Source: Nocardia sp. BSTN01 | Lineage (GTDB): Bacteria > Actinomycetota > Actinomycetes > Mycobacteriales > Mycobacteriaceae | Length of the DNA: 64,000 bases | NCBI RefSeq assembly: GCF_015354405.1 | Contig: NZ_JADKYP010000021.1 | Span: forward strand, 1-64,000 | Direction: 5' to 3' | Shown here: piece by piece, positions 9,646 to 35,984 of the stretch | Layout of the letters: every line of letters starts with the position of its first letter | Numbering within the stretch: the stretch's first letter is position 1 | The notes under the pieces: generated by a model | Told to the model about the DNA's origin: nothing | What the model saw: only the letters and a program-made list of their open reading frames with translations | Database searches by the model: none | Translations under genes and position numbers: made by a program

Positions 9646-9888
9646 CCAGCGGCATGGCTTGCGGCGCAACGTATACGAGTAGACCAGGCTCGACTGCGCC
9701 ACAGGCGGTGGCGAGATCCACAAGGCCGCTCCATGCCGCGAGCCTACGCGCTAGTTCCGCAACTCCCGCGTCAAACGAACACCAGAGGAAGCGGCGGCGG
9801 AACTGGTCCCGGTCCGACGAGCCCAGCAAGTAGGGTTCGGCAGCAAGCACCGCTGAGGCTGTCGGTGGTTGCTTCTATCGTTGGGCGC

Positions 9889-10140: not shown

Positions 10141-10161
10141 TTGCCGCGTGATCCTGGTTGG

Positions 10162-11391: not shown

Positions 11392-11451
11392 CGCGTGAAC
11401 TTTCTTTCCTTCAAGTGACTTGGTCTTTTGAAGGAATCTCAATGACTGTTG

Positions 11452-12716
11452 TCAAGTGGCGACGGCCGCTCCGACCGGGGCTGGGAGTCTGTGGACGAAG
11501 TGCCGGCCATCGCGCAACAGTGCCCAGAGGACGTCGACCAACCGCCGGGCGAGTGCAAGCAGCGCCTGGGTATGAACCCGTCGCTCAGATCTTTTGCGCT
11601 GATAGAACTCTCGTGACGGCCCCTCGACCTTGAGGCTCGACAGTGCCGCCATGAAGAACACGCGCCGCAGTCGTCGGTTGTATCGCTTGGGCCGGTGTAG
11701 ATTGCCACTGATGCGGCCGGAGTCTCGCGGCACCGGCACCAGCCCCGCATAGGAGGCCAGTCGGCCTGCGGTGCCGAACGCAGCCAGGTCAGCGCCGGTA
11801 GCTACCAGGAACTCGGTCCCTAGATGTGGCCCCATGCCGGGCAGCGACTCGATGATCGAGGCGTGTGGATGTTCCCGAAATCGAGCGGTGATTTGCTTGT
11901 CGAGGTCCTTGATCTCACGATCGAGGTCGAGCAGCTTACGCGCTAGCCGCTTGATCAAGGCCGCCGTCGCGGGCTCACCAGGCACCGCCACGTACTGCTC
12001 GCTGGCGGCGGCAACTGCTCGTGCGGCGAGATTATCGATACCTTTAGACCACGCCCCGTTGGTCACCAGATGCGCTGTCACACCATCGATTCCAGCCCTC
12101 CGAACTTCGTTCGGGGTGACCACACCGCTGACCAGGATCAACGGCGAGCGTGTCGAGTAGTCGAACGCGGCCTCCAGAGCCGGGAAGATCGCTGCGAGCA
12201 TGCTGCGGAGTTGGTTGACCCGCGGACCCAGTCGGCCATCAGGTCACCTCGATAGCTCGACAACTGCGTCAACTCCGCGATCAATTCATCCGGCGAGGTC
12301 ACCGGCTGCAGATCTTCGCGCATGCGGGCGGTGTCGGCGATGACACGTGCGTCCTTGGCATCAGTCTTGCCCTCGCCGCGGAATACGCCGGTCATGGCCG
12401 ATACCGTCCGACCAGGGACGTAGGCCACCGATTGCCCAGCATCGAGCAGAACCGTGATCAGCAAGGCTGCCAGCGGGCTGACCAGATCGATCGCCCACCG
12501 CAGCTCGACACCGGTTCGGCGTGCACGCTCGATGACCGCTTCGATATCTCGCTGATCGTTGCCGACCCTGCCTGACCAGCACACCTTTCCGATCTCATCG
12601 ACTATGCACGCATGATGGCTCGCCTTGCCGACATCTATTCCGATCCAAATTCTTTGGCGCAGAGCCACTCTCACACTCCCGATCACGCAGACCGAGCCCG
12701 TGGACAACCCCGCCAT
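11452..12716 (-). pseudogene. IS110-family transposase, single frameshift
   Basis: Two overlapping frames together make one IS110 transposase of about 420 aa. The N-terminal part (12716 down to about 12224) carries the DEDD RuvC-like half: IGIDVGK, DLVSP and the acidic pair in DAKDARVIAD. The C-terminal part (about 12220 to 11452) has the Transposase_20 region SLPGMGPHLG and the serine region DSGRISG. The join lies at about 12221-12228, where one base appears to be missing, probably from an original W-V-R-R-V-N-Q. The element is therefore likely inactive unless frameshifted. Its end abuts the IS256 head, so two insertions are stacked here. Confidence 0.85.
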
Positions 12717-22315: not shown

Positions 22316-22873
22316 TCAGAATGGAGGCGCGTCGTCTCCGAAACCTGCGGCGGCCCCAGCCATCACCGGCTCCCGCCACGGATCCTCACCACGGGACGGG
22401 GAAGTCGCAGGCTGACCGAATCCCGTGCTGGTGTCCACGGCGGGGCCGCCGAACCCGTCGCGGTGCGCGGTCACGGCGCGGTCGGTGCGCGGCCCGCCGG
22501 ATGTGCCGGCGGAGATTCGGGTGACCTTCGCGGTGGCGTAGCGCAACGAGGGGCCGATCTCGTCGACGTCGAGTTCGACGACGGTGCGTTTGTCGCCCTC
22601 TCGGGTGGTGAACGAGCGCTGCTTGAGTCTGCCCGTGACGATGACACGCGCTCCCCGCGAGAGGGATTCGGCGAGGTTCTCCGCTGCCTGTCGCCACAGG
22701 TTGCAGCGCAGGAACAACGGATCGCCGTCTTTCCACTCCCCGGCGGTGCGGTCGAAGTACCGCGGTGTGGAGGCGACGGTGAAGTTGGCCACCGCCGCGC
22801 CGGCTGGAGTGAACCGGAGCTCTGGCGAGTCTGTCAGGTTTCCTGTCACGGTCAGGACGGTGTCACCGGCCAT
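22316..22873 (-). CDS. ssb: single-stranded DNA-binding protein
   Basis: SSB, 185 aa. The OB-fold spans about residues 1-115: it opens [23 protein letters not shown], then FTVAS, and has [25 protein letters not shown] flexible linker leads to the acidic tail GDDAPPF, close to the canonical DDDIPF that recruits replication and repair partners. ATG at 22873 has GGAG upstream. On mobile elements an own SSB protects transferred single strands and can dampen the SOS response of the recipient. Its place between the ParB-like and zinc-finger genes fits a maintenance and transfer module. Confidence 0.93.
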
Positions 22874-22921
22874 GGGCGTTCTCCTCAATCATCAGCAACG
22901 GGGATCGGATGGAATACGAGA

Positions 22922-22950
22922 CCGGCCCTGCCGGGGCGTGGCAGGACCGG
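22922..22950 (-). terminator. hairpin between the parB-like gene and ssb
   Basis: CCGGCCCTGCC pairs with GGCAGGACCGG (one mismatch) across a 7-nt loop, about 17 bp after the ParB-like stop. No T-run follows. It could attenuate rather than end transcription into ssb. Confidence 0.45.
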
Positions 22951-22966
22951 GGTACGGCAGGTGTGG

Positions 22967-24658
22967 TTATTTGTCGATGGGGATGTCGTGGAAGTCGATG
23001 TCGCCGGCGGCGGCCTGTTCGACGTCGACCAACGCGAAATCGTCGTCGGCAGTGGCGATGTCGGCGAGCAGGTGCAAATACCGGGTGGTGGTCTGCGACC
23101 GTGTGCGCCACAGGCTCTTGTCCAGGGTGACCTCCCGGTTGGCCAGCACCATGCCCAGTGCGAGCACCCACGCCCGGTTGGTCGACGCGGCACCGATCAC
23201 CTTCACCAGTTCCTCGGTCGAGGACCCGACCCCGAGCAGCTTGGTCATCAACTGGAGAGCGCCTGGCGCGAGATTCCGCGCCAGGTACTCGGCCACGAAA
23301 TGCGCGGCCTGCACCGGCGGCTTGCTCCGCTGGATATACTTCGTCAGGAATTCCTCGCGCCGCTCGGCCGCGGCGACACCCCGCTTGTTCAGCTCCCGCA
23401 CCCGGCGGCGGGCCAACCGTGCTTCTTCCCGCGCCGCCGCAGCGCGTTCGGCGGCGGCCAGCGCCTCCTGCGGGTCAGCGGCCTGCGGAACAGGACGCTG
23501 TAGTCCGGTGGTGTCGAGCTGGTCGGCGGGCAGGTAGTAGGCCGGGATCCAGCGATCACGCCAGGCGAGCCCGTCCGCGCGGCGCAACCCGTCGCCGGGT
23601 TCGGTGTCGCGGTCGTGCTGGGTGTCCCAGTCGACGGTGTCGGGATCGACGAGCGTGCCGGTGGCGGTATCGACCAGCTCCCCGTTTTCCTCGACATCGA
23701 CCCACACCACCCACCGCGCCGGATCGGCGTAGACGTCGGTGTCGGTGACCGGTTCGCCGTCGGCGCGGGTGAGGTCGGTGGCGGGTAGGTAGGCGTCGTC
23801 GGGGCCGGGTTCGTCGGTGAGGATCCCGAATCCGTAGGCGCCGTAGGGCAGTGACGCGTGGAGGCGGCGGCGGGTTTCGTCGCGATCGGCGGCGATCGCC
23901 TTGGCCGTGTAGCTGAAGTTGTAGCGGGAGGTCGTCGTCAGCTTCTCGACGGCGTCGGCGTCGCCGAGGTTGTCGTAGTCGGCGATGACGGCGAGCTGAT
24001 CGAGGCTGTACTGGCCGGCATCGGCCAGCTCGCGTCCTGTCGCCGAACGGCCGACCGCGGCGAGCTTGCGCACTTCCGCGCGTTTGGTCTGTTGCAGTCC
24101 TTTCGCCACCCGTGTCGGGGAGGCACCCAGATCGAGCATGAGCGCGACCCCGGCGGCGTAGTCGGCCTGGGTCAACGGGATCCGACGCTCGTTGAGATTG
24201 ATCTGCGCCATCGTGCGGTCGATACGACGCTGCTTGACATCGACGTCGACGGGTGCATCGGTGATCCACACCGGAACCCGGGCAAGGCCGACGGCCTGGG
24301 CGATCAACACCCGCACCTGACCATCGAGCACGTGCACCGACCCGTCGGGTTCGCGTTCGGCCAGCACCGGAGCGCCGACACCGAACTCGCGGATCGAGTC
24401 GGCCTGTTTCGGATGCTCGGCGACGTCGAAGCCGGTGCGCACATTCTCCGCGATCACCAACTCCCGCGGATCCATATACGCCGCGGTCGCATTCGGCGGA
24501 ACCTCCAGCTCCGCCTCGCCGGCGGGGTGCGGGTCGCGCTCATTCTCGGCGGACTCGGCACTGGTGGCGGATTCCGCACCGGTGGCATCACCGATGGGGG
24601 TGGCCGAGGCGGCGGCGGGTTCGATGTCGGGCACGACGGTGAGAGTGGTGGGGCTCAA
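22967..24658 (-). CDS. ParB/Srx-domain protein
   Basis: Large ParB-like protein, 563 aa. Residues about 55-150 form a ParB/sulfiredoxin-type N-terminal domain (MDPRELVIAENVR, then SIREFGVGAPVLA and VLDGQVRVLIAQAVG). A helix-turn-helix linker with INLNERRIPLTQADYAAG follows. A long C-terminal half has a charged coiled coil near residues 400-440 (EERLARRRVRELNKRG type) and ends acidic. Start is TTG at 24658 with AGGAGG six bases before. ParB-fold proteins of mobile elements bind centromere-like sites or act as CTPases or nucleases; no parA is visible nearby, so a partition role is unproven. Confidence 0.85.
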   Translation of the reverse strand: MSPTTLTVVPDIEPAAASATPIGDATGAESATSAESAENERDPHPAGEAELEVPPNATAAYMDPRELVIAENVRTGFDVAEHPKQADSIREFGVGAPVLAEREPDGSVHVLDGQVRVLIAQAVGLARVPVWITDAPVDVDVKQRRIDRTMAQINLNERRIPLTQADYAAGVALMLDLGASPTRVAKGLQQTKRAEVRKLAAVGRSATGRELADAGQYSLDQLAVIADYDNLGDADAVEKLTTTSRYNFSYTAKAIAADRDETRRRLHASLPYGAYGFGILTDEPGPDDAYLPATDLTRADGEPVTDTDVYADPARWVVWVDVEENGELVDTATGTLVDPDTVDWDTQHDRDTEPGDGLRRADGLAWRDRWIPAYYLPADQLDTTGLQRPVPQAADPQEALAAAERAAAAREEARLARRRVRELNKRGVAAAERREEFLTKYIQRSKPPVQAAHFVAEYLARNLAPGALQLMTKLLGVGSSTEELVKVIGAASTNRAWVLALGMVLANREVTLDKSLWRTRSQTTTRYLHLLADIATADDDFALVDVEQAAAGDIDFHDIPIDK

Positions 24659-24680
24659 AGGAGACCTCCTATGAGATGAC

Positions 24681-24728
24681 GATCGGCGCGGCCGCGCCGA
24701 TATGAATAGCGGTGGGGCCGCGCCGATC
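24681..24728 (-). terminator. 13-bp inverted repeat hairpin
   Basis: GATCGGCGCGGCC and its exact complement flank a 22-nt spacer between the small gene at 24756 and the ParB-like gene. The left arm itself contains a 20-bp palindrome centred at about 24690, giving alternative folds. Terminator or processing signal. Confidence 0.55.
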
Positions 24729-24755
24729 TGGACGGTGAAGCGGAACAGAGGTGGG

Positions 24756-24995
24756 TCAGGCGGCTGCCTGGCTCGACGCGCGGGTGACGTTGATCGGGTG
24801 CAGCCGCAGCACGCCGTGCTCGTCGTCGAGGTAGGCCCAGTGGCGGCCACGCCACCCGGCGTGCTCGGCGCGCCAGCGGTCGGCGACGGCGGGATCCATC
24901 TCGGTGAGGGTGGCGCTCGTGCCCGCGGCGCCGCGGTGTTCGAGGCGATCGAATTGCGCGCGGGACAGGGTGGGGACAGAGTTCGCGGACGGCAT
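24756..24995 (-). CDS. small hypothetical protein
   Basis: 79-aa protein starting MPSANSVPTLSRAQFDRLE, ATG at 24995 with AAAGGT nine bases upstream. The C-terminal half (WRAEHAGWRGRHWAYLDDEHG) is rich in tryptophan and histidine and reads like a compact beta domain, but I recognise no family. It sits between the DUF4192 and ParB-like genes and is probably cotranscribed with them. Confidence 0.6.
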   Translation of the reverse strand: MPSANSVPTLSRAQFDRLEHRGAAGTSATLTEMDPAVADRWRAEHAGWRGRHWAYLDDEHGVLRLHPINVTRASSQAAA

Positions 24996-25054
24996 GAACG
25001 GTGACCTTTCTGATCGGGGACGAAACGAGGAGACGGCCAAAGAGGCGATGCTGG

Positions 25055-26095
25055 TCAGCGGTGTAGATCGACGCCGAGTGCGTCGGCGATGTCGTGTGCG
25101 TAGGTGACGACGGCGTGGAGGGAGGGTGGGGCTGTGGCGTCTCGCAGTGTGGTATCGAGGGACCGTGCGAACCGATGCTGTGGGTCGGAGTCAAGGGCTG
25201 CGTCCAGCGCGATCGAGGCCAGCGCTCCGTCGCCTCGGTGATAGGCCGAGAACGCCAGCAGAGCCGCGGCATGGGCGCGTTCGGGATCGGGCAGGCTGCG
25301 GGTGAGCAGCGCCCACAACCGTTCAGCCGCGTCGACACGAGCAGTGCCGGCCAGCCCGAGCAGGCAATGGCGCACGGCCGCTGTGCGTAAGGCCACCGCG
25401 AGTGCGGCCATCTCCGCCGGTGTCAGCGTCGAACCTGCTGCGAGCGTGTCGATGTGCTCGACCACCGTCGCGACGGTGGCGGTGATCTCGCTCGCCGCGC
25501 TCTGCGTGTGGATGCCGGTGTCGGCGTGCAGCAGTGCGCGGACCTGGTCGGCCAGCGCCGGGTCGGGCTCGATCAGGCGGGTCAGTTCCTCGCGTGACCG
25601 GCGGATCGGATGTCCCGCGACGACGAACGCGGCGGCAAGCGTGGTCGCGTCGGGGTCGGGCACGACGCCGGACTCGGTGGCATCGAGCAGGCTCCACCAC
25701 GGCGCGCCTGCGTCGATCACGCGGGTCGCCCACGCCGACGCGAGAACAACACCGCGTGTGGTGAGGGCTCGGTCGAGGATGTCGAGGGTGTGGGTGTGCC
25801 TGCCAGGGGGCGCGGACGTTGGTTGCGCGGTGCTGTCGACGATGAGAACCAATACTGCCGACGCGTTTTCGTTCGCGGCGACGTCGGCCAGTTGCGCCAC
25901 GACGGCGGTGAGCCGGCTGTCGCTGACGTGGAGGTCGTGGCGGGCGACGACTTTGATGCAGACCTCGTCGGCGGGAGGGCGGCGTTCGAGGAGCGCCACG
26001 ACCAATGAATCGACGGGGTAGAAGCCGAGCAGGGCCGGCACGGCGGCGATGAATTCCCCCGGGGCAGACATGCGTAGTGTCGTCGGCTGAATCAT
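25055..26095 (-). CDS. DUF4192-family protein
   Basis: 346-aa protein with the DUF4192 layout: it begins with a short strand and then GEFIAAVPALLGFYPVDSLVVALL, the family signature, followed by an alternating alpha/beta half (about residues 60-180) and an alpha-helical C-terminus resembling TPR repeats (AFSAYHRGDGALASIALD). Chromosomal members are widespread in actinobacteria with no settled function. ATG at 26095 with GAAGGGA upstream. A copy on a conjugative element next to DprA-like genes suggests a DNA-processing or regulatory role, but this is only association. Confidence 0.82.
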   Translation of the reverse strand: MIQPTTLRMSAPGEFIAAVPALLGFYPVDSLVVALLERRPPADEVCIKVVARHDLHVSDSRLTAVVAQLADVAANENASAVLVLIVDSTAQPTSAPPGRHTHTLDILDRALTTRGVVLASAWATRVIDAGAPWWSLLDATESGVVPDPDATTLAAAFVVAGHPIRRSREELTRLIEPDPALADQVRALLHADTGIHTQSAASEITATVATVVEHIDTLAAGSTLTPAEMAALAVALRTAAVRHCLLGLAGTARVDAAERLWALLTRSLPDPERAHAAALLAFSAYHRGDGALASIALDAALDSDPQHRFARSLDTTLRDATAPPSLHAVVTYAHDIADALGVDLHR

Positions 26096-26178
26096 GAACG
26101 ATCCCTTCACTGGACAACGAATCGGAGACGGCCGACACAGCTGACCGGGGCGCGGGCAGCCCGGTCGGCGCGCCGCGG

Positions 26179-27041
26179 TCAGCTCATGAAGTGGTGGATG
26201 TCGTGGCCGCTGGTGGTCAGGCGCGCGCGCCCGGTGGCGATCAACTCGTGCGGCAGCGCGGTGGTCGCACTGGTCACCGGTCCTGGCACCGCGAACACCG
26301 GAACCCGATGGCGCACAGCGTGCGCCGCGATCGTGGCGGGTTCACCGCCTGGTGTGGACTCGAGCACTGCCCGCGACAGCGCGGCCAACAGGCGAGTCTG
26401 GGCGCGGCGACGGGCCCGGGTCACCGACGTACCGGGCGGGTACTCGGATACCAAAACTCCGCTGGTGGCGACGGTGGCGAGTAGTCCGGAATGTCCAGGC
26501 GGGTGAGCGACGTCGATCCCGGCCGCGAGAACCGCGACCGGATGGCCGTGAGCAGCGAGCGCGGCTTTGTGCGCGATCGCGGCGACCCCGTATGCGCTGT
26601 CCGCCGAGACATTCCAGCCCAGGGTGGTGAGTTCGGCGGCGATCCGGTCGGTGACGGCGCGGCCGTATCCGGTCGCGGCCCGGGAACCGGTGATGGTGAT
26701 CGCCCGCTCGATGACGGTGTCGAGGCGGACAGGGCCGCGCAGGTAGAGCGCGAACGGGCCGGATTGTGTGGCGCGGTCCAGCCGCGCCAGCTGCCACGGC
26801 CATTCAGCGTCGTCGCGGGTGACCACCCGGCATCGAGTTCATTGAGGCGATCGACGTCGCGGCGTGCGAGGTCGCCGAGATCGGAAGGGGTCGGGAAACC
26901 AGTGTGTCCGCGGCGGATCCGATCGGCTATCTCGCTGGTGGGTCTGGACTGCCACAGCAGGCGCGTTCGGTGATCGCTGGTGGTGAGTGCGCGGGCGACG
27001 AGGGCTCGGTCCAGCAGGTCGCAGGTGCTGGTGTCGGTCAC
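26179..27041 (-). pseudogene. second DprA-like protein, frameshifted
   Basis: The N-terminal domain (GTG at 27041, VTDTSTCDLLDRAL...) runs in one frame to about 26830; the Rossmann part (TRDDAEWPWQLARLD, then TITGSRAATGYG, VLAAGIDVAHPPGHS, VSEYPPG) continues in another to 26179. Restoring one G in the G-run near 26826-26829 joins them as L-D-A-G-V-V-T-R-D-D, which aligns with the intact paralogue next door. The DprA-type RxxxRNR segment that binds DNA is altered here (RARRRAQTRLLAALS). Its start overlaps the stop of the first DprA-like gene by 4 bp (GTGA). Either a recent pseudogene or a sequencing slip. Confidence 0.75.
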
Positions 27042-27967
27042 GAGGCCGGCCCCGCGCCGAGGTCGGTGACGATGTCGAGCGCGTCGCTTCCGCTGGCGGC
27101 CAGGTGCGCGGTGTGCTCGCGCAGCAAGTGGTGGCATCCGGTGGAGGTGGCCGAGTAGATCGGACCAGGGACCGCGGCGATGCGGCGGTGCAATCGTCGC
27201 GCCCACGACGCGGTGTCGAGGGTGCTCGAGCGCGCACCGGCCTCACAGATGACCAGGCCTGTCGAGAGGGCGGCGACGAGTCGATTACGTTCGGGGAAAC
27301 GGGATTTGGTCGGCGGGGAGCCGGGCGGATACTCGGAAACGATCAGCCCGCGTTCGGCGAGCTGATCGAACAGCGGTGTGTTTCCGGTCGGGTAGGCGCG
27401 GTCGACTCCGGCGGCCACGACCGCGATTGTGGGCGCCGACAACAGCAGCGCGGCCTGGTGGGCGGCGGTGTCGATGCCGTACCCGGCGCCACTGAGGACA
27501 CACCAGCCGCGCTCGGCGAAGTAGGTCGCCATATCGTGGGCGACGTGGATGCCGTAGTCGGAGGCCGCCCGCGCCCCCGTCACTGCCACGGTGCGATCAA
27601 CGCAGACGGTGAGCGCGAGCGGGCCGCGCACCCACAAGGCGACCGGGGCAGTGACGTTCGCGCGTTCGAGGTCGGCGACCGCGGCCGTCGGCCAATCGGG
27701 ATCCTCGGGAGTCAGAAGCATCGCCTCGACCGCGGCCGCGCGATCGAGGTCGGCTACGGCTTGGTCCCGCACATCGGGTGGAATTTGGAACAGTTCGGGG
27801 TCGGTGCACAACTGTTCGGCGACCTGCTCGACGTCGGTGTCAGCCAGAAGTGCCGCCACGGTAAGGGAATTGGTCAACGCGGCGCGGGCAGCGACGGCCC
27901 ACGCAAACCGCCTCTGCGCGCTCAACGGCGCGAAGCGTTCGTCGCAGGCAGGGGCGGAAGCGGACAC
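27038..27967 (-). CDS. DprA-like DNA-processing protein
   Basis: DprA/Smf-family Rossmann protein, 309 aa. Motifs in order: VAVTGARAASDYG, SGAGYGIDTAAHQAAL, VVAAGVDRAYPTGN, SEYPPGSPPTKSRFPERNRLVAALS (ssDNA-binding positive patch), and GARSSTLDTASWA with AAVPGPIYSATSTGCHHLL. GTG at 27967 with CAGGAG upstream. DprA loads RecA on incoming single strands in competence; on a conjugative element it may protect or process transferred strands, or contribute to anti-defence. Two consecutive copies are unusual. The protein lacks the C-terminal winged helix seen in some chromosomal DprA. Confidence 0.88.
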   Translation of the reverse strand: MSASAPACDERFAPLSAQRRFAWAVAARAALTNSLTVAALLADTDVEQVAEQLCTDPELFQIPPDVRDQAVADLDRAAAVEAMLLTPEDPDWPTAAVADLERANVTAPVALWVRGPLALTVCVDRTVAVTGARAASDYGIHVAHDMATYFAERGWCVLSGAGYGIDTAAHQAALLLSAPTIAVVAAGVDRAYPTGNTPLFDQLAERGLIVSEYPPGSPPTKSRFPERNRLVAALSTGLVICEAGARSSTLDTASWARRLHRRIAAVPGPIYSATSTGCHHLLREHTAHLAASGSDALDIVTDLGAGPAS

Positions 27968-28449
27968 GGCAATCTCCTGATGGAAGTCAATTGGGGGAGT
28001 CGATCAGCGCAGCGGGGGCGGCGACCAGGCAGCGCCGAAGCAAGCGGGTGTGCCGGAAAGCCGGACGAGCCCCTGCCGCGATGGCGCATGACACCGGGAC
28101 AGCGCATCGGTGTGCACAGTGGACGGCGCAGGCGAAAACTGGCCACTATCAGCCGATTGAGTCCGCGCCGCCTCGGGGCGCGAGTCGTTTGCGAGGAGAA
28201 CGGGCGTGTCCGGAGGGGGTGGACTGAGCCCGTTCTCGCACCCTTCGCCCTGCAACGGTGTGTAAACGCACCGCGATGGTGACGGGGCGCATCGGGGTAG
28301 GGGATGGTGCGAGCCACCCGTGTATCCCCTCGATCCCCCCGATCCCATCGCGAAGTCTAGACCTCACCGTTCGACTGCGGCAGTGGCGAGTGGAGTCCGA
28401 CCACGACTGTTCGTGTCGTGGTCGCAGGGTGGAGGGTCGGTGGTGCGTG
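27968..28449. other. intergenic, two hairpins, no supported gene
   Basis: No gene with coding character is seen in this 482-bp gap. It holds an inverted repeat GAGAACGGGC...GCCCGTTCTC (28196-28237). It presumably also carries the promoter of the dprA-DUF4192-parB-ssb block and the end of the metalloprotein gene. Confidence 0.5.
28398..28424 (-). terminator. 10-bp perfect hairpin after the metalloprotein gene
   Basis: CGACCACGAC and its exact complement are separated by 7 nt, 25 bp after the stop of the gene at 28450. There is no T-run. Confidence 0.6.
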
Positions 28450-28950
28450 CTAGGTGAGGTGGGCTCCGGTGTCGTGGAGCAGGGTGCGCATCAGCCATCC
28501 GGCTTCCGCGCCGACGACGGTGTCGAGCACCTCGCAGAACACGCGACAGAACTCGGGCCCGTGCCCGGCAGCGGGGCGTGGTTGCAGGTGGTGAGCAAGC
28601 TCGTGCAGCACCAGCAGTTCTCGCACCGCATGCTCGCGCAGCGGGACCGCGATCGTGGCGGTCGCGGGCTCGTAGTGCGCATAACGACTGCCGCGCCGCG
28701 CACGCACCCGCACAGCCGCCGCTGCCCGCGGGTACCGGGCACGGATCGAGGGCAGCGCCATCACGGCTGCGAGGTACGCGGTCACGGATTCGACTGTGCC
28801 CATGCGCCTTTCGACCGGTACACAGATATGGGAGCCGAACAGTTCGACGGTGCGTCCCGGAGTGCGATCGGCGAGATCGAACAGGGCACGCAGCCGGTGC
28901 TCGGCGTCGTAGACCTTGCGTCGCTGGCTATCACGTGGTCGTGCGGTCAC
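28450..28950 (-). CDS. HExxH metallohydrolase-like protein (TIGR04338 type)
   Basis: 166-aa actinobacterial metalloprotein. The zinc site is LHELAHHLQP, with a third ligand probably in GHGPEFCRVF about 12 residues later, the spacing of SprT/WSS1-like gluzincin-type folds. I associate it with the TIGR04338 family, whose biochemical function is unknown. GTG at 28950 overlaps the DUF2786 stop by 4 bp (GTGA). On the element it always travels with the DUF2786 gene here, so the two may act together, for example in processing DNA-protein crosslinks or relaxase complexes; that is speculation. Confidence 0.82.
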   Translation of the reverse strand: MTARPRDSQRRKVYDAEHRLRALFDLADRTPGRTVELFGSHICVPVERRMGTVESVTAYLAAVMALPSIRARYPRAAAAVRVRARRGSRYAHYEPATATIAVPLREHAVRELLVLHELAHHLQPRPAAGHGPEFCRVFCEVLDTVVGAEAGWLMRTLLHDTGAHLT

Positions 28951-29714
28951 GACGGTAAACCTTTTCGCGGTCCGTCGATCTCGCTGAGACCGTGCAGGCG
29001 GGCGCGTTGCCCGTCGCGGTCACCGGCCTCGCCGGCGGCGGGTGCGTGGCCGCCTGCGCGGCGGTGCCCCGGCCAGGTGCCTTTCGCGGTGGAGTGGGCG
29101 GTGTAGTAGTCGCGTAGCTCGATGTCTTTGTCCCGCAACGCCAACGCCGTGCCCGCCGCGGCCGGCGAGGTGGGGGTGAGGGCGTCGGCGCGTGCTTGGT
29201 CGCGCTCGTCCCGTAGGCGTTGCCCGACGCGGGCGGCGAAGGCGCGCTGGTAGGCCAGCCGCGCGGTGACACCGGCTACCGGGTGGCGCTGGTGGGCCGC
29301 GGAGTTCAGGTAGGCACGTGAGCCACGCACCATCTGGGCGAGCAGATGGGTGTAGAGCAGCTGGGTGGTGTCGATGTCGGAGCCGAGCCCGAAGGCGATC
29401 ACCCAGGTCGAGTTGTGGGCGGCGTCCACGCGCACGTCGTTGGCGTGGGCGATGGCCACGAACAACTGCACATAGGTGGCCAGCCCTTTGGTGTGTTTGG
29501 CGCCGATTTCGATGCGCCGCATGCCCGGCATCGGGCGGGCACGGCCGCGGTCGGCGGCAGCGGCGCGGGCCACGGCCAGGTCGATGGAATGCTGGGTCGC
29601 CAGCTGCTGGGCGCGGGCGAGGAAGGCCTCGGCTTCGTGCGGGTTGTCGGTGCCCTCGGCCTGGCGCATCAACGCACCGATGCGGGTGAGCACCCTGTCC
29701 GTATCGGCCATCAT
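28947..29714 (-). CDS. DUF2786-domain protein
   Basis: 255-aa protein. Residues 1-50 match the DUF2786 opening: LTRIGALMRQAEGTDNPHEAEAF, then the helix QLATQHSIDLAVA. The central part has KHTKGLATYVQLFVAIAHAND and a hydrophobic core, and the C-terminal 60 residues are low-complexity and polar. Two start codons in tandem (29714 and 29711) are possible; the first overlaps the stop of the preceding gene. DUF2786 proteins are frequent in phages and plasmids, often beside SprT-like metalloproteins as here. Function unknown. Confidence 0.82.
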   Translation of the reverse strand: MMADTDRVLTRIGALMRQAEGTDNPHEAEAFLARAQQLATQHSIDLAVARAAAADRGRARPMPGMRRIEIGAKHTKGLATYVQLFVAIAHANDVRVDAAHNSTWVIAFGLGSDIDTTQLLYTHLLAQMVRGSRAYLNSAAHQRHPVAGVTARLAYQRAFAARVGQRLRDERDQARADALTPTSPAAAGTALALRDKDIELRDYYTAHSTAKGTWPGHRRAGGHAPAAGEAGDRDGQRARLHGLSEIDGPRKGLPS

Positions 29715-30391
29715 TCACCGTCCCTGGTGAACAGGGTGCGGGTGGCGATGATCGCGGCCAGCAGGTCCAGCGGCTGATCACCGGTGTCGGTGGGTGCGGC
29801 GTCGCGGATCTTGCGGAGTTTGCGCAGCCGCGAGGCGGGGCGCAGTTCGACACCGAACATCGCCATGCTGTGTTCGCTACCGGGAGCGCGGATGAGCGTG
29901 TAGTCCTCGATCGCGATCCATGCCTCGTACCAGGCCTCGGCCGGCTGGCCTTCACGCCGGCCTTCGCCGGGCTGGGGATTCGGTGGCGCCCACAGTCGGC
30001 AGGTGCACTCCGGGTCGCCGCACGGGCGCCGGCTCGGATGCCGGTTGTAGTGATCGCTCTGCCCGGCCAGCATGGGGCATGTCCGTTTCGAATACAGACC
30101 ACACTCGGGGTGCAGCGCGGGTTCCGGGCCGATGCCGCGCAGGTAGTCCTGCGGCCGGATGTAGACCACCACCCACGGGCCGTGGAGGCGCTGACCGCAC
30201 ACCTGGCACAGGCTGTGCTGCCAGATTTGTTGCAGCCGCGCGGGATTCACCGCGCCCCACACGGGCTTGGCGGGGTCGCGGTGGGTCATCGTGATGTAGG
30301 GAACGACCATGCCCGCCGCGACCGGCGCCTCGGCCAGACGTTGCGGAACCGGAACCGGGCCCGGGATGGCGCCGCCGGGAGTGTCGGGCAT
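29711..30391 (-). CDS. cysteine-rich hypothetical protein
   Basis: 226-aa protein with several putative zinc-binding positions: CQVCGQRL (about residue 62), HPECGLY, RTCPM, and CGDPECTC. The N-terminus is proline-rich (GPVPVPQRLAEAP). I recognise no catalytic domain; the spacing resembles treble-clef zinc proteins found on actinobacterial mobile elements. ATG at 30391 with GGAGG upstream. The stop overlaps the DUF2786 start, so the two are translationally coupled. Confidence 0.7.
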   Translation of the reverse strand: MPDTPGGAIPGPVPVPQRLAEAPVAAGMVVPYITMTHRDPAKPVWGAVNPARLQQIWQHSLCQVCGQRLHGPWVVVYIRPQDYLRGIGPEPALHPECGLYSKRTCPMLAGQSDHYNRHPSRRPCGDPECTCRLWAPPNPQPGEGRREGQPAEAWYEAWIAIEDYTLIRAPGSEHSMAMFGVELRPASRLRKLRKIRDAAPTDTGDQPLDLLAAIIATRTLFTRDGE

Positions 30392-30547
30392 CGGGTACCT
30401 CCATTCGGATCGAAAGGGGAAAGCAACGGGGCGGTGCTGCGGTGAGCCGGACCGGTCGCCGCGAGCACCGTCGTTTCTCTCGGGTCACCGCTGGTAGCCG
30501 TGACGTTCGGTTGCGAGTCCGGTCGCGGCGGAGTCCGGGAACGCCTT

Positions 30548-30790
30548 CTACTCGTGGGCGCTTGCCGAGCTGCGCAGTGCGCGATATGTGACGCGGACGA
30601 GCCGTTCGTGGGTGCGGTAGTCGGCGATGGCGTGGTTGAGCAGAGTCAGGGGTTCGCCGCCGACGACGGTGGCCATGGTGTGGGCGATACCGAGCGCACG
30701 CCGTGTCGAGGCGATGTAGGGGCCGAGGGCCTCGACCAAGAGGGCGACGGTCTCGTCGCGGCTCAACGGTTTGACGGTGGATTCGCTCAC
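30548..30790 (-). CDS. small helical hypothetical protein
   Basis: 80-aa protein (VSESTVKPLSRDETVALLVEAL...), GTG at 30790 with AAGGAG eight bases before. It is predicted to be all alpha-helical from its heptad-like leucines and alanines. No family recognised. It lies immediately downstream of the first glutamine amidotransferase gene (83 bp) and could be part of that transcription unit. Confidence 0.6.
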   Translation of the reverse strand: MSESTVKPLSRDETVALLVEALGPYIASTRRALGIAHTMATVVGGEPLTLLNHAIADYRTHERLVRVTYRALRSSASAHE

Positions 30791-30872
30791 GGGAACAACT
30801 CCTTGCACAGCGAGCACGGGCACGGCAGCGAAGCGGTGGCGGGGCCGGGCCCGGTGATGGGTGGTCGGCTGG

Positions 30873-31631
30873 TCAGTGGGTTGGCAGGCCGAGCAGGTCG
30901 GCGTAGCGGTCGACGCCGTCGAATTGCGGGCAGGCGCAGCGGGGGAACGGGTGCGCGCAGTCGGCGCAGTATCCGCACCACCCGCAGTGCGGGCCGAAGG
31001 GGTCGTCTTCGAATGCGCCGCAGTGTTCGCAGAATCCGATGTAGTCGGTGTCGGCGCTGGCCCACTCGCGTATCAGGTAGCTGTCGTTGGAGTACCAGGT
31101 GCCCCCGACCCAGCGCCCGTGGCGTTCCCCGAACACGTAGGCGGGATGTTTGTAGGCGGGATCGGTGGTCAAGATGACGACCTTGTTGGAGCCGAGCCAG
31201 TGTTCGAACCGGTCTCGCCCCGCCCAGCTGTCGAGTGACCCGAACGGTTTGGTGGGCAGGAAGTCCTCGGCCGCGATCCGGGTATCCGAGCGCGCGTCGC
31301 CCGCTGCGGGGTGCACGTTGGGCGGCAGCACTCCGTTGTGGGCGAGGACGGTGCGCGGGTCGCCGCCGACGGTGAAGGGGTGGCAGTTGCTGGTGTCGCG
31401 GTCGCCGTGTGTGGCGTAGCGGGAGTGGAACAACGCCGGACCGCCCGGATGCTTGGTGCGTTGTTCGGCGAACTCGGCGATCACGTCGTCGCTGTTCATG
31501 CCGTGGCCGACGAGGATCGTCTTGCCGGTGTGGATGGCGTAGCCGTGGCCGTGCGGGTTGGCCAGGGCCCCGCCGTGCAGGGCGTCGAGGTCGGGGTCCT
31601 GGCCGGGTTTGTAGAAGGTCAGGATGCACAC
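30873..31631 (-). CDS. class II glutamine amidotransferase-like protein, copy 1
   Basis: 252-aa N-terminal-nucleophile amidotransferase. Initiation GTG is followed directly by Cys2 (VCILTFYKPG), the catalytic nucleophile of GATase II enzymes. Supporting motifs are HSRYATHG, then NCHPF, and LAHNGVL, which bind glutamine and form the oxyanion hole. A C-terminal zinc-ribbon array (CEHC, CGWC, CADC, CAC; about residues 197-235) is an added domain. It should release ammonia from glutamine or act as a related amidase. The start overlaps the amidoligase stop by 13 bp, so ligase and amidotransferase are made together. Confidence 0.85.
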   Translation of the reverse strand: MCILTFYKPGQDPDLDALHGGALANPHGHGYAIHTGKTILVGHGMNSDDVIAEFAEQRTKHPGGPALFHSRYATHGDRDTSNCHPFTVGGDPRTVLAHNGVLPPNVHPAAGDARSDTRIAAEDFLPTKPFGSLDSWAGRDRFEHWLGSNKVVILTTDPAYKHPAYVFGERHGRWVGGTWYSNDSYLIREWASADTDYIGFCEHCGAFEDDPFGPHCGWCGYCADCAHPFPRCACPQFDGVDRYADLLGLPTH

Positions 31632-32836
31632 GCGAAGGCCTCCAATTCGTCGGTCAGGCAGCGGTATTCGGGGCGCGCGGCCAGCCACGCTGTGAACGCC
31701 GCCCATTCCCAGCCACGGCGGCGAGCGATATCCGCTGCGGAGAGGGTGCGGGTGTATTCGACGGAGGCGTCGGCGAAGGCGAGCGCGGCTTGGACCTCCC
31801 GCGTGTTCAGGGAGCTGGCGAATACCCGTAGTTCGAAGGTGTGCTCGGGGCGTACGTTGATGGCCTGGTACCGGAACGCGCGTTCGGCGTTGCTTTTGGC
31901 GTGGGCGGCGGCGTTGGCGCGGGCGCCCGGGTCGAATACCGCCCATTCCTCGGAGTCGCGGCGCGCCAACGTCTTGACGTGGGATTCGTTGCGGTAGACG
32001 AATTTCAACCACCGGTAAGCGTGTGCCGGCGAGGAAAACCCGGCGCGGGACACGTGCACATGGATGCCGACACTGGTATCGGTGTAGGCTCCCAGAATCC
32101 GCAACCGATTCAGCAGCGGCCACGGAAAGTGTTGGCGCGCATACTTATACGACATAGGGTGCGTGACGAGCTCGTATCCGCACGGCTGGATACTCCCATC
32201 CTCCTTTAGATAGCCAATGTCGCCGAGCTGGTCGATGGCGAGCTCGACAGCTTCATCGAAAACGTCTCGGGGGGTTTTGATTTCGAGTTCCAGTCCGAGA
32301 TACAGCGGCCCGGTGCCGTGGAAGTCGGGTTCGGGTTTGTAGTCGTAGGAGTGGATGCCGTGATGGTCGGGTCGTTGGTTGGCGCAGTAGTCGCAGTAGT
32401 CCTCCCAGCAGCGGATGAGGATTTCGCAGCCGGGGCAGCGGCGGTAGTCGGCGTCCTCGCAGCGCCCGCACACGTCCGTCCCGGATTCGGTCTCGTTGAG
32501 CCCGTCCGCGCGTGAGCCGCAGTCATCGCACACCAGGTAGCTGTCGGCGCAGTCGTCGCAGACCTCGCCGTGCCCGATGACACGGACGAGATCGCTGTCG
32601 AAGCGGTCGCAATCGCGGCACCGTCGCCACCCGATCGAACATTCCGTGCACACGTCGGTGTCGTGCACGGTGGAGCGGCGATCGCGCGTGGGGGTGGCGC
32701 AGTCGTCGCAGGTATCGAGCCGGTCGGCGCACGCACGGCACAGATGATCCCCCTCGACCGTGAGGACGGTCGTGGTGTCGTCGATCGGGTGTGAACAGTC
32801 CTCGCACCGCCGATCGGTGAGAGTGGATGAGAGCAT
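31619..32836 (-). CDS. zinc-ribbon-array amidoligase, copy 1
   Basis: 405-aa fusion. Residues 11-151 hold ten CxxC motifs (CEDC, CRAC, CDDC, CTEC and so on), a tandem array of about five zinc knuckles. From about residue 174 a glutamine-synthetase-fold amidoligase domain begins (GTGPLYLGLELEI, then YLKEDGSI, YELVTHPMS, VGIHVHVSRAGF, YRNE and YQAINVRPEHTFELRVFASSL), the COOH-NH2 ligase type of PF12224. The acidic ELEI, the HVH and the ELR arginine are the expected metal and phosphate ligands. ATG at 32836 has AAGGA upstream. It likely forms an amide or isopeptide bond on a peptide or protein bound by the zinc fingers. Confidence 0.85.
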   Translation of the reverse strand: MLSSTLTDRRCEDCSHPIDDTTTVLTVEGDHLCRACADRLDTCDDCATPTRDRRSTVHDTDVCTECSIGWRRCRDCDRFDSDLVRVIGHGEVCDDCADSYLVCDDCGSRADGLNETESGTDVCGRCEDADYRRCPGCEILIRCWEDYCDYCANQRPDHHGIHSYDYKPEPDFHGTGPLYLGLELEIKTPRDVFDEAVELAIDQLGDIGYLKEDGSIQPCGYELVTHPMSYKYARQHFPWPLLNRLRILGAYTDTSVGIHVHVSRAGFSSPAHAYRWLKFVYRNESHVKTLARRDSEEWAVFDPGARANAAAHAKSNAERAFRYQAINVRPEHTFELRVFASSLNTREVQAALAFADASVEYTRTLSAADIARRRGWEWAAFTAWLAARPEYRCLTDELEAFACAS

Positions 32837-32877
32837 ACGAATTTCACGTCCTTCCGGAGAATGAGGGAGAGACGACA

Positions 32878-32916
32878 GCGCCCCGCTCCGGGCCATGACT
32901 GGCCGGAGCGGGGCGC
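32878..32916 (-). terminator. strong hairpin between the two amidoligase/amidotransferase units
   Basis: GCGCCCCGCTCCG and its exact complement, extended by GCC/GGC, enclose ATGACT. It lies between the amidoligase-1 start and the IS481 left end. Before the IS insertion it would have ended the copy-2 unit about 50 bp after its original stop. Confidence 0.7.
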
Positions 32917-33012
32917 AGGGCTAATGCGTCGAGAAGCAGCTGGAATGAGCGGTGAGTCGCGAATCAGCTGGATGCTGGGAACCGAGTCGCGGCTCGGCGA
33001 ATAGGGGCTAGT

Positions 33013-34021
33013 TGTGCTACTGACGGTGGCCGGTGACAGTGTGGGCTTGGGTCTTCTGTAGCAGCCTTTCATAGGGTGTCTGTCCTCCGAGGCCGCCGTG
33101 GGGGCGGTGGTAGTTGTAGTAGTCCTCCCACTCTTTGAGCTTGTCGTTGAATAGTCCGGCATCGTCGATGACCACCCCGTCGAGGAGGCGGTAGAACTCC
33201 TCGGCGTCGATGCGGTGCGAACGTTCAACCTTGCCGTTGAGCCGCGGCGTGGCCGGTTTGATGTAGGTATGGCCGATGCCCTGGTCGATCACGTGCCAGT
33301 GGAATGCCGACTGGAACTCCGCGCCGTTATCGGTCTGGATCTTCTCGATCTGGAACGGCAGCCGGGCGATGAGGTAGTCGAGGAACTGGATCGCGGTCTT
33401 CTGATCCGATCGCGGGTATATGCGAAGCACCCGCAGCCGGGTGCAGTCGTCGATAGCGGTGTACTGGTAGAAGCGCTTGCGGCGGTGCGGGCCGGTCGTG
33501 ATCGGTTCGATGAACTTGACGTCGACCTGCACATGGTGGCCCGGCCGCTGCTTCTCGTAGCGTTTCCATCGCTGCTTGTGGCGTTTGTAGCGTTGCGAGG
33601 CCGGCAGCCGGTTCATCCCAAGGCGTTTCAGGATGCGCCACACCGCGGATTGACTGATCGAGACATCGTGGTAGCGCTGCAGGTACATCGAGATCTTCAG
33701 CGGACCGAAGTGGTAGTGCTGACGCAGATGGATGATCTTGGCGACGACTTCGGGCTGGGTGACGTTCGGGCAGTGCAATGGTGCGCTCGACCGGTCTTTC
33801 AGCCCGTCGATCCCCTCGTCCTCGTAACGACGTTTCCACCGGTAGAAGACATTTCGACTGATCCCGTAGTACCGGCATGTCGCGGTGACGTTGCCGCTGA
33901 CCTCCTCGGCATGTTGTAGAACGGCCAGGCGCCGATTCGCGCGCCTGATCAGATCCTTCTCGCTCCATACACGTTCGGGCACAAGGACTCCTCTTCATAT
34001 CAGGAGCCCAGACTGTCAACA
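33013..34021 (-). mobile_element. IS481-family insertion sequence
   Basis: The right terminal sequence (read inward on the minus strand) begins TGTTGACAGTCTGGGCTCC at 34021; the left end is taken as TGTGCTACTGACGG from 33013. The repeats are only loosely similar, so the ends may be off by a few bases. Deleting this interval restores an uninterrupted amidotransferase reading frame, which supports the chosen borders. No target duplication is evident. Confidence 0.65.
33017..33982 (-). CDS. IS481-family transposase
   Basis: 321-aa DDE transposase. An N-terminal HTH (VTATCRYYGISRNVFYRWKRR) is followed by a second one, then the catalytic core: QVDVKF (D), QTDNGAEFQ (D), and the E in NGKVERSHRIDAEEF, with a C-terminal YNYHRPHGGLGGQTP block typical of IS481 and IS3 OrfB. 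No frameshift is needed, which separates it from IS3. It appears intact. Confidence 0.93.
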   Translation of the reverse strand: MPERVWSEKDLIRRANRRLAVLQHAEEVSGNVTATCRYYGISRNVFYRWKRRYEDEGIDGLKDRSSAPLHCPNVTQPEVVAKIIHLRQHYHFGPLKISMYLQRYHDVSISQSAVWRILKRLGMNRLPASQRYKRHKQRWKRYEKQRPGHHVQVDVKFIEPITTGPHRRKRFYQYTAIDDCTRLRVLRIYPRSDQKTAIQFLDYLIARLPFQIEKIQTDNGAEFQSAFHWHVIDQGIGHTYIKPATPRLNGKVERSHRIDAEEFYRLLDGVVIDDAGLFNDKLKEWEDYYNYHRPHGGLGGQTPYERLLQKTQAHTVTGHRQ

Positions 34022-34746
34022 ACCTCCGGCAGTTTTATAGCTAACTCACAGGTGCAGGAGAACAGGACGGATCGGCAGTCGAAACACCAGCCACACGTCC
34101 GGCAGTAGCGGCTGGTGCGTTCGAGATCGCGGTCCAGGCAGTACCCGCACACCGTCCGGCGCCGGGCCGGCCACCGCTGCTCAGGCGGCAGGAAGGAGCG
34201 GTTGGAATACCAGATCCCGCCCACCCACTGCCCCGCTCGTTCCCCGAACACGTAGGCGGTGTGGGCGTAGGCCGGGTCGACGGTCAAGATCACCAGCTTG
34301 CTCGACCCCAACCAGCCCGACAGCCCCCGCGCACCGGCGACGGTGTCGATCGGGCCGAACGGTTGCCTCGGCAGGTAATCCTCGGCCGCGATCCGGGTAT
34401 CCGAGCGCCGGTCATACGCGCGTGGATGGACCCGCTTGGGCAGGGTGCCGTTGTGCGCCAATACCGTTCGCGCATCGCCGCCGAGCCGGAAGGGATGACA
34501 GTTGGATAGATCGACCGCGCCGCGGGTGGCGTAGCGGGAGTGGAACAACGCCGGGCCGTCCAGATGGTCGGCGCGGGTGCGGGCAAAGGTGCCGATCACG
34601 GTGTCAGCGTTCATGCCGTGCCCGGTGATGATGCGACCGCCGGCCACGATCGCGAAGCCGTGACCGTCGGGATTCGCATCAGCCCCGAACCGCAGCGCTC
34701 CCTTGTCGATCGCAGCACCGGCGGGGTAGTAGGTCAGCAGGCACAT
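34000..34746 (-). CDS. class II glutamine amidotransferase-like protein, copy 2, C-terminus altered by IS481
   Basis: 248 aa, paralogue of the copy at 30873. It starts ATG-TGC (MCLLTYYPAG), again placing Cys2 as nucleophile. HSRYATRG, NCHPF and LAHNGTL are retained, as is a C-terminal Cys-rich segment (CGYC, CRTC, CFDC, CTC). Its last residues (VDSLGS) are read from IS481 terminal DNA. The native tail, LAPIRRAATRFPASS, can be read on the other side of the IS and would end at 32964. The catalytic domain and zinc ribbons are untouched, so activity may persist. The start overlaps the amidoligase-2 stop by 13 bp, exactly as in copy 1. Confidence 0.82.
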   Translation of the reverse strand: MCLLTYYPAGAAIDKGALRFGADANPDGHGFAIVAGGRIITGHGMNADTVIGTFARTRADHLDGPALFHSRYATRGAVDLSNCHPFRLGGDARTVLAHNGTLPKRVHPRAYDRRSDTRIAAEDYLPRQPFGPIDTVAGARGLSGWLGSSKLVILTVDPAYAHTAYVFGERAGQWVGGIWYSNRSFLPPEQRWPARRRTVCGYCLDRDLERTSRYCRTCGWCFDCRSVLFSCTCELAIKLPEVVDSLGS

Positions 34747-35927
34747 TGCAGGGCCTCCATCTCCGCGGCCAGCGGCTGGTAGTCGGGGCGGGTGGTGACC
34801 CAGGTGGCGAAGCGGGCCCAGTCCCAGGCGCCGGCGCGGATATCGGCGACCCGCAGACCGCGGGTGTAGTCGATGGAGGCGGCGGTGAACGCGAGCGCGG
34901 CCTGCACCTGCTGCACATCCAGCGAGCTGGCGAACACCCGCACCTCCAACGTGTTGCGCGGCAGCGGATTGATCGCCTGATACCGCTCCAGCCCCAGCGC
35001 GTGCTGCGGCCCCTTGGCCGTGTCGCGGGCACGCGCGCGGGCGGCGCTGTCGAACTGGGCGTAATGCGTGCGGCGGCGCGCCAACCGTGTGACCGCTTCC
35101 TCGTTGCGGTACAACAGTTTCAGCCATCGATACACGTGTGCCGGGTTGTCGAACCCGGCCCGGCTGGCGTGCACGTGCAGCCCCACCGACGCGTCGGCCT
35201 CACACCCCAGCCGGTGCAGTTGGTCGAGCAGCGGCCAGGGAAACGACTCGATCGCATACCGGTAGGAGAGGGGGTGAGTGACGAGCTCGAACCCGGACGG
35301 CCTGATGGAAGAGTCGCGTTTCAGATATCCGAGGCCGGCGAGGTGGTCGGTGGCCAGGGTGGCGCAGGTGTCCAAGCGGTGTTCGGGGACGATGATTTCC
35401 AGTTCGAGCCCCAGATACAGGGGTCCGGTGCCGTGGAAGCGGGGGTCGGGGCGGTAGGTGTAGTTCCACACCTTTCCCCGGTTGCCGCAGGCCTCGCACC
35501 GGTGTCCGGGTTGGACGAGGGTGCCGCATGCCGGGCAGGCGTGGAATCGACTGGCGCAGCGGGGGCAGGCGCGGTGCCCGCCGGAGATGTAGCGGCTGTC
35601 GGCAGTGAACCGCCCGCAGCTGAAACACGCGGCGAACAACACGCTCGCGCACCGCGCGCACACCGGGTCATCGGTATCGGTGCGCAACTGCGGGCCGGTC
35701 AACTCCTGGCACGACACACACCCGGCCCACCCCGTCAGGCAGTGCGCGCACAACTCGGCCTCGTCGGCAGTGCGTGTCAACCGCAAGGAGGGGGTCCGGC
35801 AGTAGGCGCAGCGGGGTAGCTGTTGCCAACACGAGTCGCACACAGCGAAATTCGCGATGCACAGCTCCGTGTCGGCTGCCGCGCCGTCGCAGACCGCGCA
35901 CGGTGGACCCAGGATCGGATCGGTCAT
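34734..35927 (-). CDS. zinc-ribbon-array amidoligase, copy 2
   Basis: 397-aa paralogue of the amidoligase at 31619. Residues 10-148 hold ten CxxC motifs (CAVC, CDSC, CAYC, CAHC, CVSC, CARC, CFSC, CPRC, CPAC, CEAC). The catalytic part begins around residue 166 (GTGPLYLGLELEIIVP) and continues with YLKRDSSI, FELVTHPLS, VGLHVHASRAGF, YRNEE and YQAINPLPRNTLEVRVFASSL. The two copies agree over the whole catalytic domain but diverge strongly in the zinc array apart from the cysteines, suggesting an old duplication with different targets. ATG at 35927 with GGAGGG upstream. Confidence 0.85.
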   Translation of the reverse strand: MTDPILGPPCAVCDGAAADTELCIANFAVCDSCWQQLPRCAYCRTPSLRLTRTADEAELCAHCLTGWAGCVSCQELTGPQLRTDTDDPVCARCASVLFAACFSCGRFTADSRYISGGHRACPRCASRFHACPACGTLVQPGHRCEACGNRGKVWNYTYRPDPRFHGTGPLYLGLELEIIVPEHRLDTCATLATDHLAGLGYLKRDSSIRPSGFELVTHPLSYRYAIESFPWPLLDQLHRLGCEADASVGLHVHASRAGFDNPAHVYRWLKLLYRNEEAVTRLARRRTHYAQFDSAARARARDTAKGPQHALGLERYQAINPLPRNTLEVRVFASSLDVQQVQAALAFTAASIDYTRGLRVADIRAGAWDWARFATWVTTRPDYQPLAAEMEALQCAC

Positions 35928-35955: not shown

Positions 35956-35984
35956 GCGCCGGCCGACAGGGAGTCGACCGGCGC
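35956..35984 (-). terminator. Rho-independent terminator
   Basis: On the minus strand a 12-bp stem (GCGCCGGTCGAC with one G-T-type mismatch) and a 5-nt loop are followed by TTTTC. It ends the transcript of the gene at 36103 before the amidoligase-2 unit. Confidence 0.75.

Follow-up and report, generated by a model that had tools for sequence, protein, structure and literature searches.

An amidoligase encoded beside a class II glutamine amidotransferase (GATase) has been described in phages. The OM43 phages MEP401 and MEP402 are described as having both genes, with reference to phiEco32 and Marvin (PMC10580990), and the LUZ24-like phage UFV-P2 is reported to encode an amidoligase of family PF12224 and, close to it, a GATase of class II (PMC3890496). 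A precedent for a ligase served by a separately encoded GATase is MurT/GatD, in which ligase and glutaminase are needed together, are co-transcribed, and amidate the glutamate of peptidoglycan (PMC3267633). In the literature consulted here, phage and plasmid amidoligases are annotated without a proven substrate. We analyzed 64,000 nucleotides of Nocardia sp. BSTN01 (contig NZ_JADKYP010000021.1, positions 1 to 64,000), hereafter the window. It contains two head-to-tail pairs of an amidoligase (AL; PF12224) and a class II glutamine amidotransferase (GAT), with all four genes on the minus strand. The upstream pair is referred to as AL1–GAT1, the downstream pair as AL2–GAT2, and the four genes together as the quartet. 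Our preferred interpretation, which we rate at slightly better than an even chance, is that each pair forms a two-subunit glutamine-dependent amide ligase, and that the pair has been duplicated with separate targeting arrays and heads a relaxase-bearing island.

Identity, pairing, and overlap of the four genes

Both amidoligases exceed the PF12224 cut-off of 22 bits (AL1, 25.6 bits; AL2, about 33.6–33.8 bits), in agreement with a sequence-only reading of the window that preceded this analysis. Among 84 aligned AL kin, 71 match PF12224 at an E-value of 0.001. The same reading assigned both partners to the class II GATases, which was supported. GAT1 scores 28.3 bits against PF13230 (GATase_4; cut-off, 23 bits), the most frequent Pfam family of the GATs (65/80 at E 0.001), and a profile built from 80 GATs aligns across the HxRxATxG and HNG motifs with PurF and GlmS chains in the PDB (E-values, 1e-7 to 1e-5), while GAT2 stays under the PF13230 cut-off. 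GAT1 starts with ATG and GAT2 with GTG, and codon 2 is Cys in both, as the earlier reading had described; each has eight Cys residues in its C-terminal tail, where that reading placed zinc ribbons. The nearest named relatives of the window are Nocardia, with GAT2 identities of 96–97%.

We then counted residues in the alignments of 80 GATs and 84 ALs, and in wider sets of 120 GAT rows (every row with a found start, duplicates included) and 127 AL rows. Met1-Cys2, Arg71, Thr74, His98, Asn99, and Asp116 are invariant in 80/80 GATs. In the wider set, Cys2, Arg71, Thr74, His98, Asn99, and Asp116 are constant in 120/120, and Gly100 in 119/120. The GAT starts were picked by a Met/Val/Leu-Cys rule, so that the invariance of Cys2 is partly selected for. 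By analogy with GlmS, we take the Arg, Thr, Asn-Gly, and Asp residues of HxRxATxG/HNG to serve the glutamine site. In the ALs, Glu183, Glu185, His259, His261, Arg264, Glu335, and Arg337 are identical in 84/84, and the core has 12 invariant columns, including the GxExE, GxHxH, and ExR motifs. These residues presumably bind metal or ATP. Across the 127 rows, the exceptions at 11 core positions are trimming gaps, fragments (L031 and L074), and a Lys in place of Arg264 in the viral contig L078. Loss of catalytic residues was not seen in the aligned ALs and GATs.

A contig scan gave 54 GAT-seeded genome loci, 44 of which are from Nocardia. The AL adjoins the GAT in 53/54, so the two genes are not apart in most genomes and the pairing proposed by the sequence-only reading holds. 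At least two pairs are present in 40/44 Nocardia loci, including one with a broken AL2 (L031), and in the remaining four (L011, L021, L050, and L054) the contig ends within the locus. The ten genome loci from outside Nocardia have one GAT each; nine of them have an AL, and L059 has a second one. Among the 11 AL-seeded viral loci, a GAT follows the AL in nine, and the other two contigs end just past the AL. One viral contig (L078) carries three divergent AL–GAT pairs (571–2534, 4497–6862, and 9566–10890), each with a 10-bp overlap. A genus survey that scored 22 candidates per genome found a GAT in 39/119 genomes, each with two to four matches, some of which are fragments. The searches of samples of the order and class, in which the GAT is rare, scored only six candidates per genome; they found it in 6/397 genomes (the window's own, one congener, and four of other genera) and in 1/394 (the window's own), respectively.

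The AL and GAT reading frames overlap by exactly 13 bp in both pairs of the window, as first noted from the sequence. The same overlap occurs in 84/84 Nocardia pairs scored, including these two; a pair was scored if both genes were detected and the GAT start was found. Among 111 de-duplicated pairs, the overlap is 13 bp in 92, 10 bp in six, and 1 bp in one. All 99 overlaps share a single register, which is that of the usual ATGA overlap, and 98 of them are 10 or 13 bp long. These lengths arise because the Cys codon at position 2 (TGC or TGT) bars an ATGA stop and the next in-frame stops fall there. We therefore rejected the 13-bp overlap as a special signal; its simple cause is that the Met-Cys start, being obligatory, extends an ordinary coupling overlap. 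Such an arrangement suggests that translation of the two genes is coupled, which would match the amounts of AL and GAT.

Age of the duplication and divergence of the zinc arrays

In a GAT tree of 114 rows made by a quick method, 41 upstream copies group in a clade of their own with an SH-aLRT of 91, and 44 downstream or later copies in another (99), the two being joined at 93. The AL core tree (FastTree) used 96 of 119 rows, after 23 rows without the trimming motif were dropped, and likewise has 38 upstream copies in one clade (0.998) and 43 other Nocardia ALs in another (0.934). The third GAT in L047 and in L048 groups with copy 2. The simplest reading is one duplication that took place before the sampled Nocardia diverged. 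A local duplication or an assembly artefact was rejected, as 40/44 Nocardia loci have at least two pairs and the upstream and downstream copies form separate clades. The ratio of nonsynonymous to synonymous substitution rates (dN/dS) for all four genes is 0.13–0.32 against five near relatives and 0.33–0.66 against two farther ones. Both copies are old, have kept their order, and are under purifying selection. The evolutionary distances of the four genes correlate at 0.79–0.86 (24 loci), which indicates that they move together as a unit.

Each AL has ten CxxC motifs in its translation and in the alignment columns, which bears out the count made in the sequence-only reading. The array of AL2 contains 20 Cys residues, with the unit CxxC-x(16-18)-CxxC repeated four times and followed by a shorter last unit, and each Cys is found in 69–84 of the 84 aligned rows. 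Searches against the PDB gave weak matches of the array to LIM and zinc-ribbon proteins, with E-values of 0.008 and worse. The arrays are presumed to bind zinc. The eight C-terminal Cys residues of each GAT are near-invariant among kin.

The cores of AL1 and AL2 in the window are 57% identical, whereas their arrays are 26% identical with Cys and 14% without. The earlier claim of conserved cores and diverged zinc arrays is thus right for the residues between the cysteines but not for the cysteines themselves, which are kept. Within each copy too, the arrays are less conserved than the cores, and the dN/dS of the array exceeds that of the core in all 14 comparisons made. We then compared array identities among 29 and 34 Nocardia ALs of the two copies, taken from the 84-row alignment and sorted by core similarity. 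At a core identity of 55–60%, the arrays are 26.7% identical within copy 1 (n = 67), 24.3% within copy 2 (n = 77), and 16.7% between copies (n = 597). Plain fast evolution accounts for part of the divergence, yet at equal core identity the difference between copies is greater than that within copies. The arrays are generally less conserved and, beyond that, copy-specific, which hints at a different modification target for each copy. The doubling in Nocardia is a natural comparison of matching cores with differing arrays, and makes the question of substrate testable.

A proposed two-subunit amide ligase and its alternatives

The two-subunit ligase reading builds on the pairing, the overlap, the conserved catalytic residues, the old and ordered separate copies, the array divergence, and the island synteny described below. 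In the mechanism that we propose, GAT would hydrolyze glutamine with its N-terminal Cys and release ammonia. The AL, presumed to be translationally coupled to it and to have a glutamine-synthetase fold, would use ATP to activate a carboxylate and join to it the ammonia from GAT or another amine. Choice of the substrate, most likely a macromolecule, would fall to the zinc arrays. A single early duplication in Nocardia would have given two enzymes with differing arrays, and the quartet, which heads a relaxase-bearing island and moves as one block, probably helps the element to live in its host. For the role of GAT, supply of ammonia is tentatively favored over deconjugation, given the invariance of the glutamine-site residues.

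Several observations weigh against this reading. GAT2 scores 20.1 bits against PF13230, under the cut-off of 23, and both GATs are also under the cut-off of PF13522; at E 0.001, 15/80 GATs have no PF13230 match and 13/84 ALs no PF12224 match. Neither the ribbons nor the overlap is universal, as five of 89 Nocardia GATs (in L018, L037, L049, L050, and L051) have fewer than four CxxC motifs in the tail, and 12 of the 111 pairs have a gap instead of an overlap, pairs outside Nocardia often being without one. An AL was looked for at the Kineosporia GAT locus L063 and none was found. Conversely, extra ALs without a following GAT occur in L029 (9818–11005), L033 (8651–9976), and L059 (7446–8705), and a further extra AL in L031 (8755–10029) is cut by the contig end. 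Hence some ALs may act without a partner or with a GAT encoded at another site, and ammonia from GAT may not be obligatory for them. Members can also be damaged: AL2 of N. ignorata is split over two frames (L031, 4672–6013), and the C-terminus of GAT1 of N. kruczakiae is out of frame (L051, 3918–5054). Lastly, the correlation of AL and GAT distances is the same whether or not the partners are cognate, so that it gives no sign of cognate specificity and the test for cognate co-evolution was uninformative.

EgtA and EgtC of ergothioneine synthesis are the model for a conjugate/deconjugate pair, in which AL would attach a group by an amide link, such as gamma-glutamyl, and GAT would take it off again, acting as an amidohydrolase that resembles EgtC and has the class II GATase fold. 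GATase_4, the commonest Pfam family of the GATs, presumably includes hydrolases of the EgtC/YafJ type, the PDB matches of GAT include 1te5 ("conserved hypothetical protein") and 3mdn, and a gamma-glutamyl hydrolase would retain the same glutamine-site residues. On the other hand, PurF and GlmS, which are true amidotransferases, give the strongest sequence matches among solved structures, and the conserved overlap is more in keeping with a 1:1 complex than with an on/off pair. These two points do not settle the matter, and we regard a conjugate/deconjugate pair as unlikely.

A comparably low probability applies to modification of the cell envelope, in which the pair would amidate a peptidoglycan or other envelope precursor and thereby exclude other phages or elements. 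Such a role is proposed for phiEco32 in the accounts of PMC10580990 and PMC11318856, MurT/GatD is a real ligase and GATase pair acting on peptidoglycan according to PMC3267633, and kin of the present pair are also found in phages and plasmids. Large copy-specific zinc arrays, however, seem unneeded for a small precursor, and the named recurrent neighbors (DUF2786, DUF4192, DprA, TIGR04338, SSB, and TrwC) are not envelope genes, a weak argument given that several neighbor clusters are unnamed. It is very improbable that the second pair has no separate role and is just a redundant or selfish tandem duplicate. Such duplicates arise easily, a few loci have a third pair or a third AL and the viral contig has three pairs, and the congener from the order search has a single GAT match near a contig end (6/61 candidates scored). 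Against this, each of the 39 genomes with a GAT in the genus survey has two or more matches, and the copies are old, have kept their order, and evolve under purifying selection.

The two-subunit ligase reading has a more far-reaching version, which we offer tentatively and consider rather unlikely in its full form. The quartet would be a two-channel modifier of macromolecules driven by ATP and glutamine, with each array directing its enzyme to a different protein or nucleoprotein of the host or the element, and would aid establishment in a new host. With a protein as its target, the quartet would amount to a system by which mobile elements tag through amide bonds. The sequence-only reading had raised protein or peptide tagging in the service of transfer, establishment, or anti-defense, which is so far conjecture.

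Island setting and comparison with known systems

The quartet stands at the head of a same-strand block of genes (Table 1). The setting given in the sequence-only reading, beside DprA, SSB, and a HExxH protein, was borne out, and the HExxH protein is TIGR04338. In five single-contig congeners, p226, a ParB-like gene, and the DUF4192 gene follow the quartet on the same strand in 5/5 and DprA in 4/5; SSB, p544, and the TrwC relaxase accompany it in 4/5, within the 60 kb fetched. Upstream of the quartet, p254 is present in 5/5 and the divergent p135 in 4/5. The window has the same neighbor block. The TrwC relaxase agrees with the label "conjugative element" used in the earlier reading, and with an element of the MOBF type, but no Pfam match to coupling protein or type IV secretion system families was found among the 30 open reading frames (ORFs) scanned in the window, which is part of a contig of 105,783 bp, and "mobilizable or decayed" is as fair a label as "conjugative". 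SSB genes are described as frequent in the leading regions of plasmids (PMC11541004); in the main text of that paper, neither "amidoligase" nor "DprA" occurs. Searched against known defense systems with PADLOC, the AL, GAT, p226, DUF2786, HExxH, and DUF4192 proteins had no match at E 0.01.

The neighbor p226 occurs in 41/44 Nocardia loci and in 37 plasmid records, 30 of them from Streptomyces. Plasmid kin of AL and GAT were found only on mycobacterial plasmids. The idea that p226 is a dedicated third subunit is weakened, as p226 is also present on plasmids where no AL or GAT kin were found. The protein contains Cys, and several Streptomyces records call it "cell envelope biogenesis protein OmpA", a doubtful name. 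Of the two DprA-like proteins, the shorter one (26179–26826) resembles ShosA (PADLOC, 88 bits) and lies beside the fuller one (27038–27967). Mutator and IS110-family transposases are found at the low-coordinate side of the island (10162–12716). The genome encodes one more TrwC relaxase at a separate site (G000:C141:197956-199188), which suggests another mobile element.

Between the two pairs lies an IS481-family transposase gene, which the sequence-only reading had missed. The element is inserted just past the last zinc Cys of GAT1, and only the variable tail of GAT1 is altered. No match to the transposase was found in any of the 44 Nocardia loci fetched. A GC-rich hairpin is located 13–54 nt before the AL start codon in most loci tested, the sample being 30 AL1 and 32 AL2 regions drawn from the window and the 44 loci. 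A stem of at least 13 is present in 23/30 AL1 regions, compared with 29/300 shuffles and 36/300 random downstream windows, and in 23/32 AL2 regions, compared with 15/320 shuffles and 17/320 random downstream windows. By eye, the stem is kept though its sequence varies between lineages. The hairpin could be a terminator, an attenuator, or a processing site. Similar hairpins are present between other genes of the island, and may thus be a general feature.

Table 1. Positions in the window of the quartet, its subregions, and neighboring features (TIR, terminal inverted repeat; aa, amino acids).
Feature	Position	Strand	Basis or detail
AL1, amidoligase of upstream pair, 397 aa, N-terminal zinc array and PF12224 core	34734–35927	minus	Pfam; upstream AL clade
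Zinc array of AL1, ten CxxC	35487–35900	minus	Translation; Cys conservation
GAT1, class II glutamine amidotransferase of upstream pair	34000–34746	minus	PF13230; copy-1 clade
C-terminal zinc ribbons of GAT1, 8 Cys	34048–34149	minus	
AL1/GAT1 overlap, 13 bp	34734–34746	minus	
AL2, amidoligase of downstream pair, 405 aa	31619–32836	minus	PF12224; downstream AL clade; ORF open to 32896
Zinc array of AL2, five CxxC-x(10-18)-CxxC units, one about every 30 aa	32384–32806	minus	
GAT2, class II glutamine amidotransferase of downstream pair	30873–31631	minus	Family profile to PurF and GlmS chains; copy-2 clade
C-terminal zinc ribbons of GAT2, 8 Cys	30930–31031	minus	
AL2/GAT2 overlap, 13 bp	31619–31631	minus	
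IS481-family transposase between the pairs	33017–33982	minus	NF033577, 279 bits (cut-off 224)
TIR-like arms of the IS481-family element	33019–33047 and 34005–34033		
GC-rich hairpin before AL1	35956–35984	minus	28 nt upstream of AL1 ATG
GC-rich hairpin before AL2	32876–32918	minus	39 nt upstream of AL2 ATG
Same-strand neighbors: 91-aa ORF, p226, DUF2786, TIGR04338 HExxH, two DprA-like, DUF4192, ParB-like, SSB	22316–30823	minus	
p226, conserved neighbor	29711–30391	minus	No family over its cut-off
TrwC-type relaxase/helicase, towards far end of same-strand block	14370–19943	minus	PF08751, 286 bits

Among the described systems, the mycobacteriophage Marvin cluster (gp105/gp106 of Marvin) resembles the Nocardia pairs in having a homologous AL (36% identity over 297 aa) followed by a homologous GAT (39.5%), with CxxC motifs in both. 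It differs in having a single pair in a phage genome, with a gap of 79 bp and five CxxC motifs in the AL. The mycobacterial plasmids NZ_CP015269, NZ_CP065286, and NZ_CP025548 also have an AL followed by a GAT, and NZ_CP015269 has a DUF4192 gene two genes upstream of the pair. However, their pairs are single, with three or four CxxC motifs in the AL and an overlap of 10 bp or none, and PLSDB types these plasmids as non-mobilizable. In the OM43 phage MEP402, the GAT follows the AL and overlaps it by 10 bp in the register of the Nocardia pairs; the pair of MEP402/MEP401 is single and about 26% identical, and has two CxxC motifs in the AL and none in the GAT. In UFV-P2, as described, an HNH gene separates the AL and GATase genes. 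The phiEco32 and LUZ24-like clusters, in their published descriptions, include ATP-grasp, COOH-NH2 ligase, and AIG2 partners, which were unseen among the ORFs scanned here. MurT/GatD differs in its folds, a Mur ligase and a CobB/CobQ-type (class I) GATase, and in being a chromosomal housekeeping system.

No title or abstract opening among the literature matches names an AL and GAT pair in Nocardia, or a double pair. Compared with phage pairs of the Marvin and MEP type, the quartet consists of homologous adjacent genes with the AL first, but in two anciently duplicated pairs rather than a single one. The pairing of AL and GAT is already in print for phages; new here is its doubled form in Nocardia.

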